This document shows positions 4,835 to 53,299 of a stretch of 54,434 nt of DNA, in pieces; within the stretch, counting starts at the first letter, position 1; each line of letters begins with the position of its first letter. A model generated the notes under the pieces. It saw nothing but the letters and a program-made list of their open reading frames with translations, did not search any database and was not told the origin of the DNA. Position numbers and translations under genes: made by a program. This DNA comes from Fibrobacterota bacterium (lineage in GTDB: Bacteria > Fibrobacterota > Fibrobacteria > UBA11236), in assembly GCA_028287465.1 (NCBI GenBank), contig JAQBPO010000048.1, positions 1 to 54,434 of the forward strand, written 5' to 3'.

Positions 4835-5275
4835 ATGGCCAAGGCCAATCGTCATCGGGGCTGGAGGGAGGCTGGGCTGGCGGGCCTGATGCTGGTAAGT
4901 TTTTTCATGCCATGGCTTTATTCCATGGGAACGCCCATCCGGGCCCATGAAATCCGCGAGCGCCTGGCGGGCCCCCATCGCCTGATTTCCGCGTTCACGA
5001 CCGGCTCCCGGGTGACCCGGGACTACAACCTTTCCCTCTGCCTGTACGCCGTCCCCCTGGTGGCCGGTGTGATCCTGGTGCTGGTCCTGATGGGGAAATA
5101 CCGACCCTGGATGGGAGCCTTGGCCGGCGCCACCGGGCTGGCCGCCTTCCTTTTCCTGCGTGGCGAGGTGGAAAGCTTCCCGTTCCATCGCATGGCTTCG
5201 GGGTCCTACGTGGCCCTCGCCACGGGACTCGCCTTGGCGCTCTCGCCTTTGCTCCGGATCGGTTCAAGGTTCTGA
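4835..5275 (+). CDS. Small four-helix integral membrane protein, unknown function
   Basis: Unrecognised 146-residue protein with four hydrophobic segments (about residues 14-30, 66-88, 95-111 and 125-142), separated by short charged loops, so an inner-membrane protein. The ATG at 4835 is chosen because AGAGGAGG lies 6 bases upstream; the frame opens earlier at 4742 without a ribosome site. It stands alone, divergent from the HNH gene and convergent with the sugar dehydrogenase gene. No catalytic motif is visible. Confidence 0.7.
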   Translation: MAKANRHRGWREAGLAGLMLVSFFMPWLYSMGTPIRAHEIRERLAGPHRLISAFTTGSRVTRDYNLSLCLYAVPLVAGVILVLVLMGKYRPWMGALAGATGLAAFLFLRGEVESFPFHRMASGSYVALATGLALALSPLLRIGSRF

Positions 5276-5280
5276 AGAGT

Positions 5281-5310
5281 GCGGCCGTCGGTAGGTGGAC
5301 CGACGGCCGC
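5281..5310 (+). terminator. Strong hairpin after the membrane-protein gene
   Basis: GCGGCCGTCGGT (5281-5292) pairs perfectly with ACCGACGGCCGC (5299-5310) around a 6-base loop, 5 bases after the stop codon at 5275. The 12-bp GC stem is followed by GGGGTTC rather than a T-run, so it may act as a transcript-stabilising hairpin or a Rho-assisted end rather than a classical terminator. Confidence 0.5.
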
Positions 5311-5358
5311 GGGGTTCGCCCGTGGCCGGTGGGTGCCCTGGGCGAATGGAGAGTGGCG

Positions 5359-5456
5359 CCTTCGCTTTGGAGCCAGGCGACTCCACGCTCGGCGCGTTCA
5401 AGGGTCCCTACTTCGCCTTCGCCTTGGAGCCAGGCGACTACACGCTCGGCGCGTTC
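5359..5456. repeat. Imperfect 41-bp direct repeat, two copies
   Basis: Two copies (5359-5399 and 5416-5456) differ at two positions and are separated by 16 bases. The unit contains GGAGCCAGGCGACTxCACGC followed by TCGGCGCGTTC. It occupies most of the 188-base gap between the convergent genes ending at 5275 and 5464. Frames are open through it, but none has a credible start or family resemblance, so I treat it as non-coding. Confidence 0.7.
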
Positions 5457-5463
5457 GGTGTAC

Positions 5464-7170
5464 TTAGGGAAAGTAACGGACCTTGCCTGTGAATTCCCCT
5501 TGGTCATTGGACACTTTCACGAAATAGATTCCGGGCTTGGCGCCTGCGAGAAGGCTTGCCGCGCGGTATTCCTTCGGGCCTTCGCTCGAGAAGGATCGCA
5601 CGGCCTTACCCGACATATCATAAAGGGCGAGTCCGTATCCGCCTTTGCCCGATACGATGATGCGTCCGGCATCGATCTCGACCGCCGGCCCATGGGCGCC
5701 CTTGATCATGGAGTAGGCGAAGGAGGACGCCGTTTCCGCTTTGAGGGTCGGATCCTGGCAAGTGCCCTTGTAGTCGATGCGGTAGATGCCGGTGCAGGCA
5801 TCGGCCGTATACCAGGTGCCGCAGCTGTAGTTCAGGTAATAGAGCGCGCCGTCGGGGCCGGCCTGGAAGTCCAGAGGTTTGTTGAAGTTCGGGCTCAGGC
5901 CTTTGAACATGTCGACCGCGGCGCCGTTCTGCTTTCCATCGGGAGTGAGCCTGATGGCCTGGATGGCGCCCTTGTTGAAATCGGTGACGAACCAGACCCG
6001 GTTGAGGGAGGGGGGGAGCTTGGAGGAGGATGGGATGGCGCCGTCGTATCGGTAGATGGGGCCCGTCATCGCGCAGCTATGCGCATAGGAATGGGTCCCC
6101 GTCCTGGCCGGAGGCAGTTCCGGAATCGCCACGCCGGGAAGCGGGTTGATGGGCGCATCGGGCTTGAGGGTTTTCCAGTCCGCCCAATTGGCCTTGTCGA
6201 TGGGCTCGGACTTGTAGGGAATGGAATCCTGCACGTGGCCGACGGCGGTCCAGAACGGCCAGCCGTAGAAGCCCGAGGTCGTCGCGACATTGTGCTCTTC
6301 GGTCCAGAGGCTGCTGTCCGGGGTATTGCCGGGTTGCTGATCGGGACCGCAATCCCCCCAGACGGCCCAACGGCGGACCGGATCCAAGGTCAGGGTATAG
6401 GCGTTGCGGATGCCCTTTACGAAGACTTCGCGTTTGGCCTTGGTGGAGTCCCGGTATTTGGCCGCGACCGCGCCCATGCCCTTGTCGTCGAAAAGCTTGG
6501 CCGAGGTCTCCCATAGGTTGCCCGCGGGAATGGTATAGCCGCCCGCCTCGGTGGGATGGATCCGGAGGATGCTTCCGCGCAAGCTCGCGGTATTCGCAGG
6601 CCCCTGCAACAAGGTCTCGTTGTCGCCGGCGTTGATCCACAAATCGCCGTAGGCGTCGAAGCGCATTGCCCCGGAGGTGTGCCAGCGGCCGCGCGAGCTG
6701 GGGATCTCCAGGAGGATCTTCTCGGTCTCGGGCTTCAAGGCCAGGGTGGCCGGATCCAGGTTGAACCGGGAAATGCGGAAGGCGAGCTTGGACGCGTAAT
6801 AGGTGAAGAGCCGCTTATTGTCCTTGAATGCCGGATCGAGCGCGAACCCGACCAGGCCGTCCTCGCCGCCCGTCTCGATATTGGGGATGTTCCCCAGGAC
6901 CCGGACCGCCTTGGTCAGGGCGTCGTAGTACTTGATCGCGCCTTTGCGTTCGATGAAGAAGATGTTCACGTTCCCCTGGGCGTCCATCTGGAAATCCATC
7001 TTCAGGGGCTCGTAGATATCCGCGCTGTTGGTCCGGCTGATCACCGTGGTGACGCTGAAATCCTTGTCGGCCGTGGCGGCGCAATTGGGATAGGTGAACT
7101 GGGCCCGGGCCGTTCCCGCGAATCCCGCCAGGATGAAGGCGAGTGCCGTTTTTGTAGCCGGATTGGTCAT
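5464..7170 (-). CDS. Secreted PQQ-dependent sugar dehydrogenase-like protein with T9SS-like tail
   Basis: A 568-residue secreted beta-propeller related to soluble glucose/sorbosone dehydrogenases, which oxidise sugars with pyrroloquinoline quinone. Residues 1-23 are a signal peptide ending in ARA. The core begins with the typical LKMDFQMDAQGNVNIFFIER strand, then GGEDGLVGFALDPAF. WHTSGAMRFDAYGDLWINAG corresponds to the family's H-x-G-x-x-x-F-x-x-D-G motif with the catalytic His. From about residue 490 a C-terminal domain with LALYDMSGKAVRSF and PGIYFVKVSN resembles type IX secretion sorting tails, so cell-surface export is likely. It lies 130 bases downstream of the GT-C-like gene on the same strand. 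Sugar substrate and true PQQ dependence are inferred. Confidence 0.85.
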   Translation of the reverse strand: MTNPATKTALAFILAGFAGTARAQFTYPNCAATADKDFSVTTVISRTNSADIYEPLKMDFQMDAQGNVNIFFIERKGAIKYYDALTKAVRVLGNIPNIETGGEDGLVGFALDPAFKDNKRLFTYYASKLAFRISRFNLDPATLALKPETEKILLEIPSSRGRWHTSGAMRFDAYGDLWINAGDNETLLQGPANTASLRGSILRIHPTEAGGYTIPAGNLWETSAKLFDDKGMGAVAAKYRDSTKAKREVFVKGIRNAYTLTLDPVRRWAVWGDCGPDQQPGNTPDSSLWTEEHNVATTSGFYGWPFWTAVGHVQDSIPYKSEPIDKANWADWKTLKPDAPINPLPGVAIPELPPARTGTHSYAHSCAMTGPIYRYDGAIPSSSKLPPSLNRVWFVTDFNKGAIQAIRLTPDGKQNGAAVDMFKGLSPNFNKPLDFQAGPDGALYYLNYSCGTWYTADACTGIYRIDYKGTCQDPTLKAETASSFAYSMIKGAHGPAVEIDAGRIIVSGKGGYGLALYDMSGKAVRSFSSEGPKEYRAASLLAGAKPGIYFVKVSNDQGEFTGKVRYFP

Positions 7171-47821: not shown

Positions 47822-49006
47822 ATGAAAAGCTTTTTGATCAAGACCTCAGGAATGATTGCAGTGGCGGCGGCTATGGCCTTCGCGGATCAGCCGGCGATTT
47901 CCATCCCGGTTGTGAACGCGCCTTGCCAGGAAGGCCCCAAGATGGTGGCCGGGAAACCGGATACGGTGAAGACCCGGCTGGACAGCGGATTCGTATCCCT
48001 GTTCAACGGCAACGATCTGACGGGATGGTGGGAGAACTGCAATACCCATACCACGGATAAGATCGTGGGCGGCGTATGGATCGTCGATCCGGCCCAGCAT
48101 GCCATCTACTCCCGCGAGGAAGGCCAGAACGGCGACATCCTCGTGACCAACCAGAATTACGGCAACTACGAAATCGTCCTCGACCTTTGGCCGACCTTCG
48201 GCAATGACGGCGGCATTTTCAACCGCGTCACGACCTCGGGCAAGAACTGGCAGTCCACCATCGACTATATCCAGGGCAGCGGCGTGGGCGGAAGCTTCAA
48301 CGAAGGCGGCTGGCAGGCCGGCGTCAACCTGAACGACGATCCGTTCCGGTTCAATGGCGGACCCACCCTTCCCACCATCACCACCTGGACCACCTTCACC
48401 CAGCCCCTGAACCCGACCAGCTTCGGCTGCAGCGAAGGCGGATGCACCTCGGCCGATTTCGAGAAGGTCTGGGATCTCAACGGCTGGAACCAGATGCGCG
48501 TCAAGTTCTACGATGGCCTGACCACCGGCAGGTCGGTCACCATGGAAACCTTCATCCGCAAGCTCGGCGCGGCCGCCTGGGTGCCGGTCTATAAGCAGAC
48601 CAAACCCGTCGTGACCCCCGCCGGTCCCGTCGCCCTGCAGATCCACGGCGGCGGCCGCTGGAAGGCGGGCTCCTATAACATGTATCGCAACATCAAGATC
48701 CGCCCCATCAACCAGGATGGATCGGTCATCATCCCCTTCCCCCCTCCCGACGTCGTTTCCACGGGGAAGGCGGCTGAACGCGGTTTCTCCGCTCCGAACC
48801 TGAAGATCGTCGGCGGCGCGCTCACGGGAAACCTGGATGCGGATTACGCGGTCACCCTCAAGGACGTACGCGGCCAGGTCGTGGAACGGTTCCATGCCGC
48901 CCCCGGAGCCCTGCAACATGCGTTGACGTCCGGATTCCATGGCGTCCTCATCGCGGAATTGAAGAACAATCGTGGCGCGGCGCATATCCGCTTGAGCCGC
49001 ATTTAA
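47822..49006 (+). CDS. Secreted DUF1080 (3-keto-disaccharide hydrolase-like) protein with sorting tail
   Basis: A 394-residue secreted protein. A signal peptide (residues 1-22, ending in AFA) is followed by a short lead and a PF06439-type domain (about 55-300), beginning FVSLFNGNDLTGWWENC with later NGDILVTNQNYGNYEIVLDL and GNDGGIFNRV. The concluding HGGGRWKAGSYNMYRNIKIR strand is typical. Members include 3-keto-disaccharide hydrolases and other sugar-binding proteins. The last ~70 residues, with YAVTLKDVRGQVVERF and GFHGVLIAELKNN, resemble a type IX sorting tail. It is the first gene of a likely four-gene unit with three outer-membrane paralogues. Confidence 0.85.
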   Translation: MKSFLIKTSGMIAVAAAMAFADQPAISIPVVNAPCQEGPKMVAGKPDTVKTRLDSGFVSLFNGNDLTGWWENCNTHTTDKIVGGVWIVDPAQHAIYSREEGQNGDILVTNQNYGNYEIVLDLWPTFGNDGGIFNRVTTSGKNWQSTIDYIQGSGVGGSFNEGGWQAGVNLNDDPFRFNGGPTLPTITTWTTFTQPLNPTSFGCSEGGCTSADFEKVWDLNGWNQMRVKFYDGLTTGRSVTMETFIRKLGAAAWVPVYKQTKPVVTPAGPVALQIHGGGRWKAGSYNMYRNIKIRPINQDGSVIIPFPPPDVVSTGKAAERGFSAPNLKIVGGALTGNLDADYAVTLKDVRGQVVERFHAAPGALQHALTSGFHGVLIAELKNNRGAAHIRLSRI

Positions 49007-49064
49007 TTTCCTCCTCATTCAGGTTATTTTTCGGCAGCGGGGGACTCCCGCGGGAGCCTCCATT

Positions 49065-50555
49065 ATGATCAAGGGATTTGCACTGCTGGTTGGATTGGGC
49101 CTCATCTCCGGGCCCACTCCCAGCCACGCGGTCCCTTTCCAATTGCATGCCAGGACCTGGACCGATGCCGGCAGGGTGATGAAGTCCACGGACACCCTTC
49201 AGATCAACTACAACGGCAATTGGCAGCAGACCATGGGGATGCAGGTGAACGGGACCGCCGATCTCGCCGAGCACCTGGAAGGCGGGTTCGGATTCGGCCT
49301 GACCCAGGTGTACCATTCCCTGGGAAGCACGGACCAGGAGAAATTCACCCTCTCAAAGTTCATCAATTACGTCGCGGAAGCCCGGCTGACCTATACCTTG
49401 GGCGAAAAGCCGAACCCGCTTTTCTACGCGGACCTGGGCGACTTCGCCTTCAACTACGCCCCGCATGTCAAGAACCTGGGCCTTTACCTGTTCCGCGGTC
49501 CGGTCTACCCGGGCTTCCTCGTTTCCGGTTTCAAGGAATTCCATACGGATACCACGCGCGCCGGGTTCCTGGGCCTCCATCTCCATAACGGCCTGGGGAA
49601 CTTCCAGCACGATGTCCTCATCTCGAGCGAGCGGGATTTGCCGCCCAGCTTCGATTGGAGCCTCGGATACGTGGCCCGTTACAAGGCGTTCAATGCCCTG
49701 GAAATCGGAGCGGGAGTCAACTTCTACCACCTGATCGCGGAAAACGCGGATATCACCTCCCCCAACCGGGGCACGGTGAAGGGACTCCTCAACAAGGATT
49801 CCTCCCTGATGGCGGACGGCACGCCGTTCCATCCCTACAACCTGCAATACATGGAGGTGGTCGCCCCCGGCGATACCGTGATGTACACCCATCGCGGCAC
49901 CAAGGTGATGGGCATGTTCAACTTCGATATCAAACGGCTCCTCGGACTGGATGGCCCCTTGGGCGAAAAGGATCTGCTCCTCTACGGCGAAGGCGCCATC
50001 ATCGGGACCAGGAACTACGGGACCGTCTACGGGAAGAGGAGCGAACGCATGCCGGTGATGGTGGGCTTCAACCTGCCCGTGTTCGGCGTGTTGGACTTCC
50101 TTTCCATCGAAGTGGAGCATTATACCGCGAAGTACAAGGCCGATTACAGCAAGCTGGGCTATGACCGCTCCCTGTACTTCAAGAACATCTTCGCCCCGCA
50201 GCTGCTGGCGCAGAAATCCCCGTCGGCCATTCCCATTTCGTTGAAGGATCTGGCGGGCGAGAAATACACCATCACCCCGGAAGGGGACTTCGTCAACAAC
50301 CAGTCCGGGGACACCATCCAGGTCAGGGGCACCGCCCTCGACGCGGAAAACCTGACCGCGGACGATTGGAAGTGGTCGCTCAATTTCGAAAAGACCCTGG
50401 TCCGCCATGTCCAGTTCAGCGGCCAACTCGCCAATGATCATTTCGTCCCCAGGCCCGTCCGGTCCGGGTTGATCAACGAGAATGGCGGCCTCTCGCAAAT
50501 CTTTTCCTCGACGAAGGATTGGTATTTCATGTTCCGTGTGGGATATTTTTTCTAA
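49065..50555 (+). CDS. Outer-membrane beta-barrel protein, paralogue 1
   Basis: A 496-residue protein of no family I know. A signal peptide (1-21) is followed by alternating amphipathic strands, ending in the outer-membrane-type aromatic C-terminus (DWYFMFRVGYFF). The shared motif VKNLGLYLFRGPVYPGFLVS (near residue 138) and the KWSLNFEKTL...ANDH region link it with the next two genes. It has a ~45-residue extra segment near the C-terminal third. It follows the DUF1080 gene by 58 bases. Function unknown; porin-like or surface receptor is inference. Confidence 0.85.
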   Translation: MIKGFALLVGLGLISGPTPSHAVPFQLHARTWTDAGRVMKSTDTLQINYNGNWQQTMGMQVNGTADLAEHLEGGFGFGLTQVYHSLGSTDQEKFTLSKFINYVAEARLTYTLGEKPNPLFYADLGDFAFNYAPHVKNLGLYLFRGPVYPGFLVSGFKEFHTDTTRAGFLGLHLHNGLGNFQHDVLISSERDLPPSFDWSLGYVARYKAFNALEIGAGVNFYHLIAENADITSPNRGTVKGLLNKDSSLMADGTPFHPYNLQYMEVVAPGDTVMYTHRGTKVMGMFNFDIKRLLGLDGPLGEKDLLLYGEGAIIGTRNYGTVYGKRSERMPVMVGFNLPVFGVLDFLSIEVEHYTAKYKADYSKLGYDRSLYFKNIFAPQLLAQKSPSAIPISLKDLAGEKYTITPEGDFVNNQSGDTIQVRGTALDAENLTADDWKWSLNFEKTLVRHVQFSGQLANDHFVPRPVRSGLINENGGLSQIFSSTKDWYFMFRVGYFF

Positions 50556-50576
50556 CGGCAGGATGAGGAAGAATTC

Positions 50577-51935
50577 ATGCGTATGAAGACCGAATCGCTG
50601 CTTATCGCCTTACTGGCCCTCGCGGGACTGGGCGCGGCCCAGGATTCCCTCGATATCAAGTACAAGGGCGCCGCCTGGCTCCAATTCGGGCGGATCCAGC
50701 ACAGTACGGATTCCCTGGTCAACGGCGGCAACCCCAACAACATGAACGGCAACTGGATCCAGGCCGCGGGCGTCCAGATCAGCACGGTCGCCAGGTTCAG
50801 CCCGCAGTGGGAAGGCGCCATGGGCATGGGCGCATTGCAGACCCATAATGCCCGCGGGGACGTGAGCGTGGCCAACAACTGGTATCCCTATTGGGTGACC
50901 TTCGTCAGCGAGGCGCGCGTCACCTATTCCAACCCGATTACGGAAACCCAGAAGGTCTCGCTCAACCTGGGGTTTTTCCCCTACAACTACAACCCCGACG
51001 TCAAGGACCTGGGCCTCTACCTGCTTCGCGGCTACGTCTACCCCGGAACCCCGATTTCCGGTTTCGAGGCCAGGCATACCACGGCGGCCGCGAACATCTT
51101 CGGCGCCATGGCCGGGTACTCGGTCGGCGGCTTCAAGAATGACCTGCTCCTGATCTCCGAGACCGACAACCGCCCCTATTTCGACATGTCCCTGGCGGAC
51201 GTGGCCTCCATGAAATTCGGGCCGGCCTTCGAGCTGGGCGCCGGCGTGAACTTCTACCGAGCCCTTCCACGCAACGCCAAGAACACCTCCCCGGGCAAGG
51301 ATTGCAAGAACGTGGTGAGCGGCTACACGCAAATCGATCCGGGCGACAATCAGGTCTGCTACATCATAGACACCCTTTCCGTCGATATCGCCGCCAACAC
51401 GGCGGTGACGGATACCATCCTGGGCTCCCTCGCGGGCACCAAGCTGATGGGCCGGTTCCGGTTCGACCCCAAGGCGTTCATGGGAGACAATGACCTGTTC
51501 GGGAAGCAGGACCTGGTCGTCTACGGCGAGGTCGGCGTACTGGGAACCAAGGACTACCGGAAATACTACGACGATATCAAGCGCCGCATTCCCGTAATGA
51601 TGGGCCTCAACCTTCCCGCGTTCGGCCGGCTGGACAAGTTCGCGCTCGAGGTCGAGTATTACGCTTCCAAGAACATGTCCGATTACGGCAAGGCGGAGGC
51701 CGACTATTCCTGGGTGCCGCGAGTGGCCCCGGGAGTGGACAATGCCAAGGATGATCTGAAATGGTCCCTGTACTTCTCGCGGGTGATGATGGGGCACTTC
51801 CGGCTTTCCGGCCAGGTCGCCAACGACCATCTGAGGATGTTCGGCCCCCCCGATATCGGCTTCACCTCCTACGCCGAAACGTCGACGACGCTCAAGGATT
51901 GGTACTGGATGCTTAAGACGACCTACTTCTTCTAG
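50577..51935 (+). CDS. Outer-membrane beta-barrel protein, paralogue 2
   Basis: A 452-residue protein, second of three tandem paralogues. Signal peptide (1-20), then HSTDSLVNGGNPNNMNGNWI, equivalent to HSSDTTSFHYSGN in the third copy. Motif VKDLGLYLLRGYVYPGTPIS lies at about 141. C-terminus DWYWMLKTTYFF is aromatic, as needed for outer-membrane insertion. Start GAGGAAG lies 8 bases before the ATG; 21 bases separate it from paralogue 1. Two Cys in the loop DCKNVVSGYTQ and QVCYI might form a disulfide. Confidence 0.88.
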   Translation: MRMKTESLLIALLALAGLGAAQDSLDIKYKGAAWLQFGRIQHSTDSLVNGGNPNNMNGNWIQAAGVQISTVARFSPQWEGAMGMGALQTHNARGDVSVANNWYPYWVTFVSEARVTYSNPITETQKVSLNLGFFPYNYNPDVKDLGLYLLRGYVYPGTPISGFEARHTTAAANIFGAMAGYSVGGFKNDLLLISETDNRPYFDMSLADVASMKFGPAFELGAGVNFYRALPRNAKNTSPGKDCKNVVSGYTQIDPGDNQVCYIIDTLSVDIAANTAVTDTILGSLAGTKLMGRFRFDPKAFMGDNDLFGKQDLVVYGEVGVLGTKDYRKYYDDIKRRIPVMMGLNLPAFGRLDKFALEVEYYASKNMSDYGKAEADYSWVPRVAPGVDNAKDDLKWSLYFSRVMMGHFRLSGQVANDHLRMFGPPDIGFTSYAETSTTLKDWYWMLKTTYFF

Positions 51936-51937
51936 GG

Positions 51938-53299
51938 ATGAGCGGGATTAGCATGAGATTTCCAGACATCCGTATCGCAATCCAGGCGCCATTGCTCGCC
52001 GCAGCGCTTTCATGCACCGCGGCCATGGCCCAAAACGACGTCACCTTCAACGGCGGCGCGTCCCTGAGCTTCGGCCGTATCGGCCATTCGAGCGACACCA
52101 CCAGCTTCCACTACAGCGGCAACCGGATCCAGACCGCCGGGGCGCAATTCCTGATGAAGGCCCGCTTCAGCGAGAACCTTCTCGTTTCCACCGGCCTGGG
52201 CATGGTGGAACGCCATTACCCCTCCGGCCGGATCAGCGACAACGGGGGACGGACGCCGTTCCTGTGGTCGCCCTACCTCGTGGAAGCGGACGTGAAATAT
52301 TCCTGGTGGGACACCGATAACGCCAAGCTGGCCGCGACCATCGGCTACTTCCCCTTTTCCTACAATCCGGACGTCAAGAACCTGGGCCTTTACCTGCTCC
52401 GCGGCCCGGTCTATCCCGGCATCCTGATTTCCGGATTCGAAACCAAGCATACCCGCCCGGTCGCGAACAACCTCGGTCTGCGGGTGCAGCACGTATCGGG
52501 AGGGTTCGAGCAGAACCTCCTCCTCAACAGCGAAACCGAGATCGTCCCGCTCTTCGACGTCTCCCCCGCCTATGTCGCCTCATACCGGTTCGGGAAGGCG
52601 CTCCGGCTCGGAGCGGGGGTCAACTTCTACCATCTTCTCCCGGTCGAGCGCCGGATCACCTCGCCGGATACGTTCGCCTACGACGGCAGCGATATGGCGG
52701 CGGGTGACGGCGATCCCAATTCGCGCACGTGGATCTACGTGGATACGGCCGCGCATGATACCACCTTCCTGTCCTTCGCGGGCACCAAGGTCATGGCCAA
52801 CGCGAGCTTCGACCCCAAGGCCTTCTTCGATACCGACCTCCTCGGCCCGGATGATCTGAAGCTGTACGGCGAGGTCGCGGTCATCGGGCTGGACAAGAGC
52901 GCGGCCTACAATGCCGTCTACGGCAAGTACTCCCGCCGCATGCCGGTCATGGTCGGGTTCAACTTCCCCATGTTCCATTTCCTCGACCACCTCTCCCTGG
53001 AGGCGGAATGGTACGGGGCGAAGGTAAAGGACGATCTGGCGCGATACCAATCCACTACGGGAAGCTACAACTCACCGCTTCCCGTAGTGAACCGGAACGG
53101 GATGGACCTCTCCAGGGACGATTGGAAGTGGTCCCTGCACGCGGAGAAGACCCTCGGGCAGGTGCGCATGAGCATGCAGGCCGCGAACGACCATTCCCGT
53201 CCCGGCGGCACCTTGACCTCCCCGGGAAGCGAATGGGAGTCGTACTTCATCACCCCCAAGGACTGGTACTGGATGGCCAAGGTGGGCTTCTTTTTCTGA
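51938..53299 (+). CDS. Outer-membrane beta-barrel protein, paralogue 3
   Basis: A 453-residue third paralogue, two bases after the previous stop. The ATG at 51953 is an equally plausible start and gives a signal peptide, MRFPDIRIAIQAPLLAAALS, cleaved after AMA. Shared motif VKNLGLYLLRGPVYPGILIS (about 145) and C-terminus DWYWMAKVGFFF. Strand-rich throughout, with no recognised family and no plug domain of TonB receptors. It closes the unit. Confidence 0.87.
   Translation: MSGISMRFPDIRIAIQAPLLAAALSCTAAMAQNDVTFNGGASLSFGRIGHSSDTTSFHYSGNRIQTAGAQFLMKARFSENLLVSTGLGMVERHYPSGRISDNGGRTPFLWSPYLVEADVKYSWWDTDNAKLAATIGYFPFSYNPDVKNLGLYLLRGPVYPGILISGFETKHTRPVANNLGLRVQHVSGGFEQNLLLNSETEIVPLFDVSPAYVASYRFGKALRLGAGVNFYHLLPVERRITSPDTFAYDGSDMAAGDGDPNSRTWIYVDTAAHDTTFLSFAGTKVMANASFDPKAFFDTDLLGPDDLKLYGEVAVIGLDKSAAYNAVYGKYSRRMPVMVGFNFPMFHFLDHLSLEAEWYGAKVKDDLARYQSTTGSYNSPLPVVNRNGMDLSRDDWKWSLHAEKTLGQVRMSMQAANDHSRPGGTLTSPGSEWESYFITPKDWYWMAKVGFFF

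Follow-up and report, generated by a model that had tools for sequence, protein, structure and literature searches.

On contig JAQBPO010000048.1 of a Fibrobacterota bacterium (assembly GCA_028287465.1) we analysed a stretch of 54,434 nucleotides, here called the window, which carries four consecutive genes on the forward strand: one for a putatively secreted DUF1080 protein and three for porin-like outer-membrane proteins (OMPs), numbered as slots 1 to 3 by their order. The DUF1080 gene (47822..49006, +) encodes 394 residues and matches PF06439, the 3-keto-disaccharide hydrolase family, at E 1.9e-13 (51.3 bits against a curated cut-off of 26.8). It is followed by the slot-1 gene (49065..50555, +; 496 residues), the slot-2 gene (50577..51935, +; 452 residues) and the slot-3 gene (51938..53299, +; 453 residues). 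The gaps along the unit are 58, 21 and 2 bases in the window's open reading frames (ORFs), exactly the spacing that an earlier sequence-only reading of this DNA had described behind a sugar-hydrolase-like gene. Scans of the locus for promoters and terminators returned nothing informative. The motifs which that reading saw in the three adjacent genes are all present, namely VKNLGLYLLRGPVYPG, an HSSD/STDT block, KWSL...ANDH and an aromatic C-terminus ending in FF. Its description of 'only partial overall similarity' was, however, understated. Pairwise BLASTP aligned the OMPs as full-length paralogs at 34%, 41% and 39% identity (E 2e-99 to 7e-74), and because of this their likeness at the sequence level cannot be due to chance.

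None of the three OMPs gave a significant Pfam or NCBIfam match, loose E-values included. The 88 members of the wider OMP family showed no consistent Pfam match either, and neither phmmer nor profile searches with the family matched a PDB chain. The host genome holds 30 copies in about 17 runs. Members were present in 11/11 genomes of the host's order, in 0/30 other genomes searched of the same class and in 30/168 Fibrobacterota genomes surveyed, spanning 16/41 genera. A pattern-based scan across 84,980 species yielded only records labelled as Fibrobacterota lineages or belonging to one unlabelled bin that also holds the module. As far as these collections and the sensitivity of the search reach, the family thus appears restricted to the phylum. 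In other Fibrobacterota lineages (L081, L087, L122, L125 and L053) a single member follows a gene of about 280 codons and one of about 630 codons in similar order; in L087 the longer gene encodes a beta-propeller, and the OMP lies upstream of ResB/CcsA-like cytochrome c assembly genes. Pairs of OMPs with an intervening gene were also seen, this gene encoding a tetratricopeptide repeat protein in L109 (1737-6478) and a GH43-CBM6 enzyme in L121 (4979-10012).

Structure prediction with AlphaFold2 (AF2) gave 16 long strands for both slot 1 (73-row alignment; predicted local distance difference test score 87.3, predicted template modelling score 0.87) and slot 3 (88-row alignment; 89.2 and 0.87). 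In both models the last residue is aromatic and strands 5 and 6 are joined by a long loop bearing VKNLGLYLLRGPVYPG; in slot 3 this loop comprises residues 139-177 (52352..52468, +). Slot 2 was assigned because it is homologous to the other two and because of its place in the tree described below. Foldseek placed Veillonella OmpM1 nearest to slots 1 and 3 (best match for slot 3, E 4.1e-11), followed by the Rhodobacter blastica porin and the OmpF/OmpC group, with TM-scores to trimeric porins of about 0.5-0.64 when normalised by target length. The same-fold barrels that the sequence-only reading proposed to look for were therefore found, and the unrelated folds that would have spoken against it were not. 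On these models the window OMPs are almost certainly porin-type barrels. Classical porins are homotrimers in which the strand 5-6 loop forms the constriction loop L3 and loop L2 acts as a latch onto the neighbouring subunit; from its L3-like position, the loop carrying VKNLGLYLLRGPVYPG is predicted to fold into the pore. While the window OMPs share 16 strands, the long 5-6 loop and the aromatic C-terminus with OmpF/OmpC, the Rhodobacter blastica porin and OmpM1, they differ from them in being about 100 residues longer, phylum-restricted and encoded by genes that come in fixed sets of three unlike paralogs, with about 8-11% identity in structural alignment and no PDB sequence match. The OMPs make up a porin family that is new, as is the way in which its genes are arranged.

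The module of one DUF1080 gene and three OMP genes recurs within the host genome, with two copies back to back on contig C74 and one on C73, and gene maps revealed type-I modules in the other genomes of the host's genus and of its sister genus. Every intact type-I module contains exactly three OMPs, one per slot, and no other slot count was found. Modules that look incomplete (L041, L043, L046, L048 and L051) lie at contig ends or have broken or shortened frames. In L046 (G001:C232) the OMP remains are two fragments split by a stop, possibly a decaying module or an assembly error. Within modules, genes nearly always overlap or are separated by at most about 30 bases, an operon-like layout, some of the large overlaps being artefacts of choosing the start of the longest ORF. 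All type-I module DUF1080 proteins matched PF06439 (23/23 at E <= 0.01). Among the 33 PF06439 genes of the host genome, 10 adjoin OMP runs where about 0.2 would be expected (hypergeometric P ~4e-15, assuming 5000 genes and with adjacency judged by eye from coordinates). Conserved synteny with DUF1080 thus extends to related Fibrobacterota genomes, an outcome that the sequence-only reading had named as support, and instead of isolated copies without a DUF1080 neighbour we found same-slot orthologs in the same place elsewhere. A functional link between the OMPs and DUF1080 is very probable.

In a maximum-likelihood tree of 65 type-I module OMPs, each slot occupies one side of a branch, with bootstrap/SH-aLRT values of 99/91 for slot 1, 98/92 for slot 2 and 99/92 for slot 3. 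The slot label changes twice on this tree, the minimum possible, compared with 31.4 times in shuffles. Proteins of the same slot in different modules are more alike (median identity 0.44-0.46) than those of different slots in one module (0.37). The DUF1080 tree recovers the same module groups as the OMP slots, and Mantel tests on the distances of the three slots and of DUF1080 gave r 0.80-0.89, values reached in 0 of 2000 permutations. From the same-slot clades and the matching DUF1080 groups it follows, as judged from sequence, that the unit of duplication is the four-gene module, with one gene per slot kept in intact type-I modules. On these trees each of the three positions corresponds to a subunit type of its own, and the three types are inherited together, which goes beyond the earlier view of the locus. 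We rejected the idea that the window trio arose by tandem duplication within its own lineage, since each member clusters with genes of its own slot from other modules; chance or isolated duplication of the OMPs was likewise ruled out by the family survey and the trees.

Fixed trios also occur outside type-I modules. A second triplet lineage, derived independently and present in seven genomes of the host's order, forms its own clade that is again split by slot, although the most distant genome is placed more weakly. A PF06439 gene lies directly upstream of this trio in 6/7 genomes; the seventh, G010 (L118), has the contig end at the start of its trio, which puts the upstream region out of view. 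A third triplet lineage was found in one Chitinivibrionales bin, which carries two trios (L082 and L086) without neighbouring DUF1080. In L082 a gene for an Sde182-like cellulose-binding protein (4885-6231, -) comes after the OMP trio. Doublets of the family (L090/L097, L098/L101 and L029/L103) keep their order across genomes and are possibly two-type (A2B) trimers.

The DUF1080 protein begins with a segment within 47822..49006 (+) that resembles a signal peptide when judged by eye, continues with the PF06439 domain (residues 56-294; 47987..48703, +) and ends in a sorting-tail-like domain of the type found in cargo of the type IX secretion system (T9SS) (residues 319-394; 48776..49003, +). The earlier description of a sugar-hydrolase-like protein with a sorting tail fits this layout. 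In the aligned sequences R135, Q144, D148, Q273 and H275 are invariant across modules. A PDB profile search with the protein matched parts of the domain only, and these matches were very distant. Our own hidden Markov model (HMM) of the tail matched many secreted proteins of these genomes significantly, and PF18962 matched the tails of some DUF1080 homologues and related proteins weakly (E 8e-4 to 6e-3 for some homologues and 7e-4 to 6e-3 with the related proteins included, below cut-off). Our HMM of the whole DUF1080 protein drifted through this shared tail and mislabelled some ThuA and glucose/sorbosone dehydrogenase proteins as DUF1080; DUF1080 counts therefore rest on PF06439 matches. Elsewhere in this region of the genome, the window encodes (5464-7170, -) another protein with the same C-terminal tail, a secreted glucose/sorbosone dehydrogenase (PF07995, E 8.8e-21; PF18962, E 7e-4) that may be a sugar oxidase. 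The host genome also encodes the T9SS translocon (SprA_N, E 2.6e-25, in a 2239-residue frame on G000:C78), and in Fibrobacter succinogenes such tails have been proposed to serve T9SS export (PMC6851124). Because of the shared tail, the weak PF18962 matches in homologues and the presence of SprA, the DUF1080 protein is likely located at the cell surface. To the DUF1080 family belong BT2157, a 3-ketotrehalose hydrolase, and CCNA_01705, proposed to be a periplasmic 3'-ketolactose hydrolase (PMC9007349). The window protein shares the PF06439 domain and a secretion signal with these, but is very distant from them, has a T9SS-like tail and is genetically tied to porin trios.

Taken together, the DUF1080 protein would reach the periplasm by its signal peptide and the cell surface by T9SS, where it would bind or cleave a saccharide; the likeliest candidates are a 3-keto-glycoside and oligosaccharides related to it. 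The products would then enter through the 16-stranded porin-type barrel, past a constriction loop carrying VKNLGLYLLRGPVYPG. Sugar uptake is pointed to by the neighbours of other OMP family members, which in the host genome include ThuA (6/56), PF06439 (5), glucose/sorbosone dehydrogenase (3), CBM6 (2) and GH20, and in a relative a GH43-CBM6 gene; secreted ThuA-domain proteins adjoin family OMPs at L026, L031 and neighbouring loci in G000. The sequence-only reading had suggested a surface glycan-handling or receptor system, and it is the glycan-handling part that these neighbours, with DUF1080 itself, support. We consider it probable that the four-gene module serves saccharide uptake, with the substrate suggested by family membership; perhaps uptake follows a 3-keto route, given the DUF1080 relatives and neighbouring genes.

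What the three barrels form together is less certain. A fixed count of three unlike porins, arrived at more than once, is the outcome to be expected if a porin that once formed homotrimers had, through gene triplication, come to form obligate heterotrimers of unlike subunits A, B and C. That the three genes encode one such A-B-C assembly is a reading we adopt tentatively, and the same caution applies to the account as a whole, a carbohydrate-uptake module with a T9SS-exported DUF1080 protein and a heterotrimeric porin. In OmpF-type porins L2 pairs ionically with L3 of the neighbouring subunit (PMC5056734). Divergence between slots is greatest at L2 (slot-3 residues 94-107; 52217..52258, +), with a mean of 0.59 compared with 0.31 overall, and L2 and the stretches overlapping it rank at the top of 411 14-column alignment windows. 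All slots have the L3-like loop in common, and it is well conserved (conservation 2.00, divergence 0.22). On the outer face of the barrel, strands 9-13 carry strongly hydrophobic residues that are similar across the slots, whereas strands 16 and 1-5 carry residues of lower hydrophobicity that differ between slots (P ~2e-4 and 1e-4 against strands 9-13), a pattern compatible with trimeric assembly. Several points weigh against this reading. In strands 16 and 1-5 the inward positions diverge as much as the outward ones (0.32 versus 0.34), so that the pattern singles out one face of the barrel and not just an interface; we therefore dropped slot divergence as proof of a subunit interface. Moreover, the trio is known from genes and predicted single barrels, from which we infer both the trimer and its mixed composition, doublets and single genes occur in the same family, and co-inheritance also fits three co-regulated homotrimers. 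That last arrangement is the main and a close rival, in which three separate homotrimeric porins of differing selectivity are co-transcribed with the hydrolase and kept as a unit for co-regulation, so that one regulatory event admits several products of one glycan. We regard it as a serious possibility, if on balance a doubtful one. The slots do differ in outer loops L7 and L8 and at some pore-lining positions (position 288, for example, is M, R and N in the three slots), and the single- and double-gene relatives indicate that a trio is not required for the barrel to function. However, the constriction-type loop common to all slots speaks against separate channels, which should moreover come and go singly, while intact type-I modules keep one per slot and this rule arose more than once. 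The heterotrimer remains the best explanation, but unproven.

Two further readings concern the barrels' role rather than their assembly. If the OMPs were surface receptors, adhesins or structural proteins that display DUF1080, the name of their nearest solved fold, OmpM1, an outer-membrane attachment porin, would fit, as would a probably surface-exported DUF1080 protein that is always beside them. This seems improbable, as the strand and loop plan with its long conserved 5-6 loop is that of a diffusion porin, and carbohydrate enzymes lie beside other family members. A divergent SusCD or TonB-dependent receptor system offers a functional analogy only, in that barrel genes stand beside a surface glycan protein, and is very hard to credit. 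Pfam and NCBIfam scans of the window proteins found no plug, SusC, SusD or TonB-receptor domain, in line with the earlier remark that such models do not cover the locus; the barrel has 16 long strands instead of 22, and Foldseek matches porins first. SusCD/TonB identity was rejected by these fold and domain tests. Bacteroidota SusCD systems and utilisomes (PMC7618045) likewise combine barrel genes with a surface glycan protein and are strongly expanded within one genome; unlike them, the window module lacks a TonB plug and SusD and has a porin-type barrel with three barrel subunits.

Heterotrimeric porins are known in facultative form from E. coli OmpC-OmpF (PMC5056734, which cites Gehring and Nikaido 1989 on these heterotrimers) and from R. 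rubrum Por39/Por41 (PMC11369160). They illustrate that unlike porin subunits can sit in one trimer, as proposed here, but in both the mixing is optional and homotrimers form too, whereas the Fibrobacterota trio is seemingly passed on as an obligate set. A limited literature search found no obligate porin heterotrimer set. Slightly less likely than the heterotrimer itself is the fullest version of that account, in which gene triplication converted a homotrimeric porin into obligate A-B-C assemblies on at least two independent occasions within one phylum, and these import the saccharide prepared by a T9SS-displayed DUF1080 hydrolase bound to the same complex. A phylum that hands down unlike porin subunits as a set of three would offer a natural test of how symmetric membrane complexes lose their symmetry, and why. 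A named, searchable family now covers 30 unannotated outer-membrane proteins of one genome, and the module offers an entry point to glycan uptake without SusCD in non-rumen Fibrobacterota.

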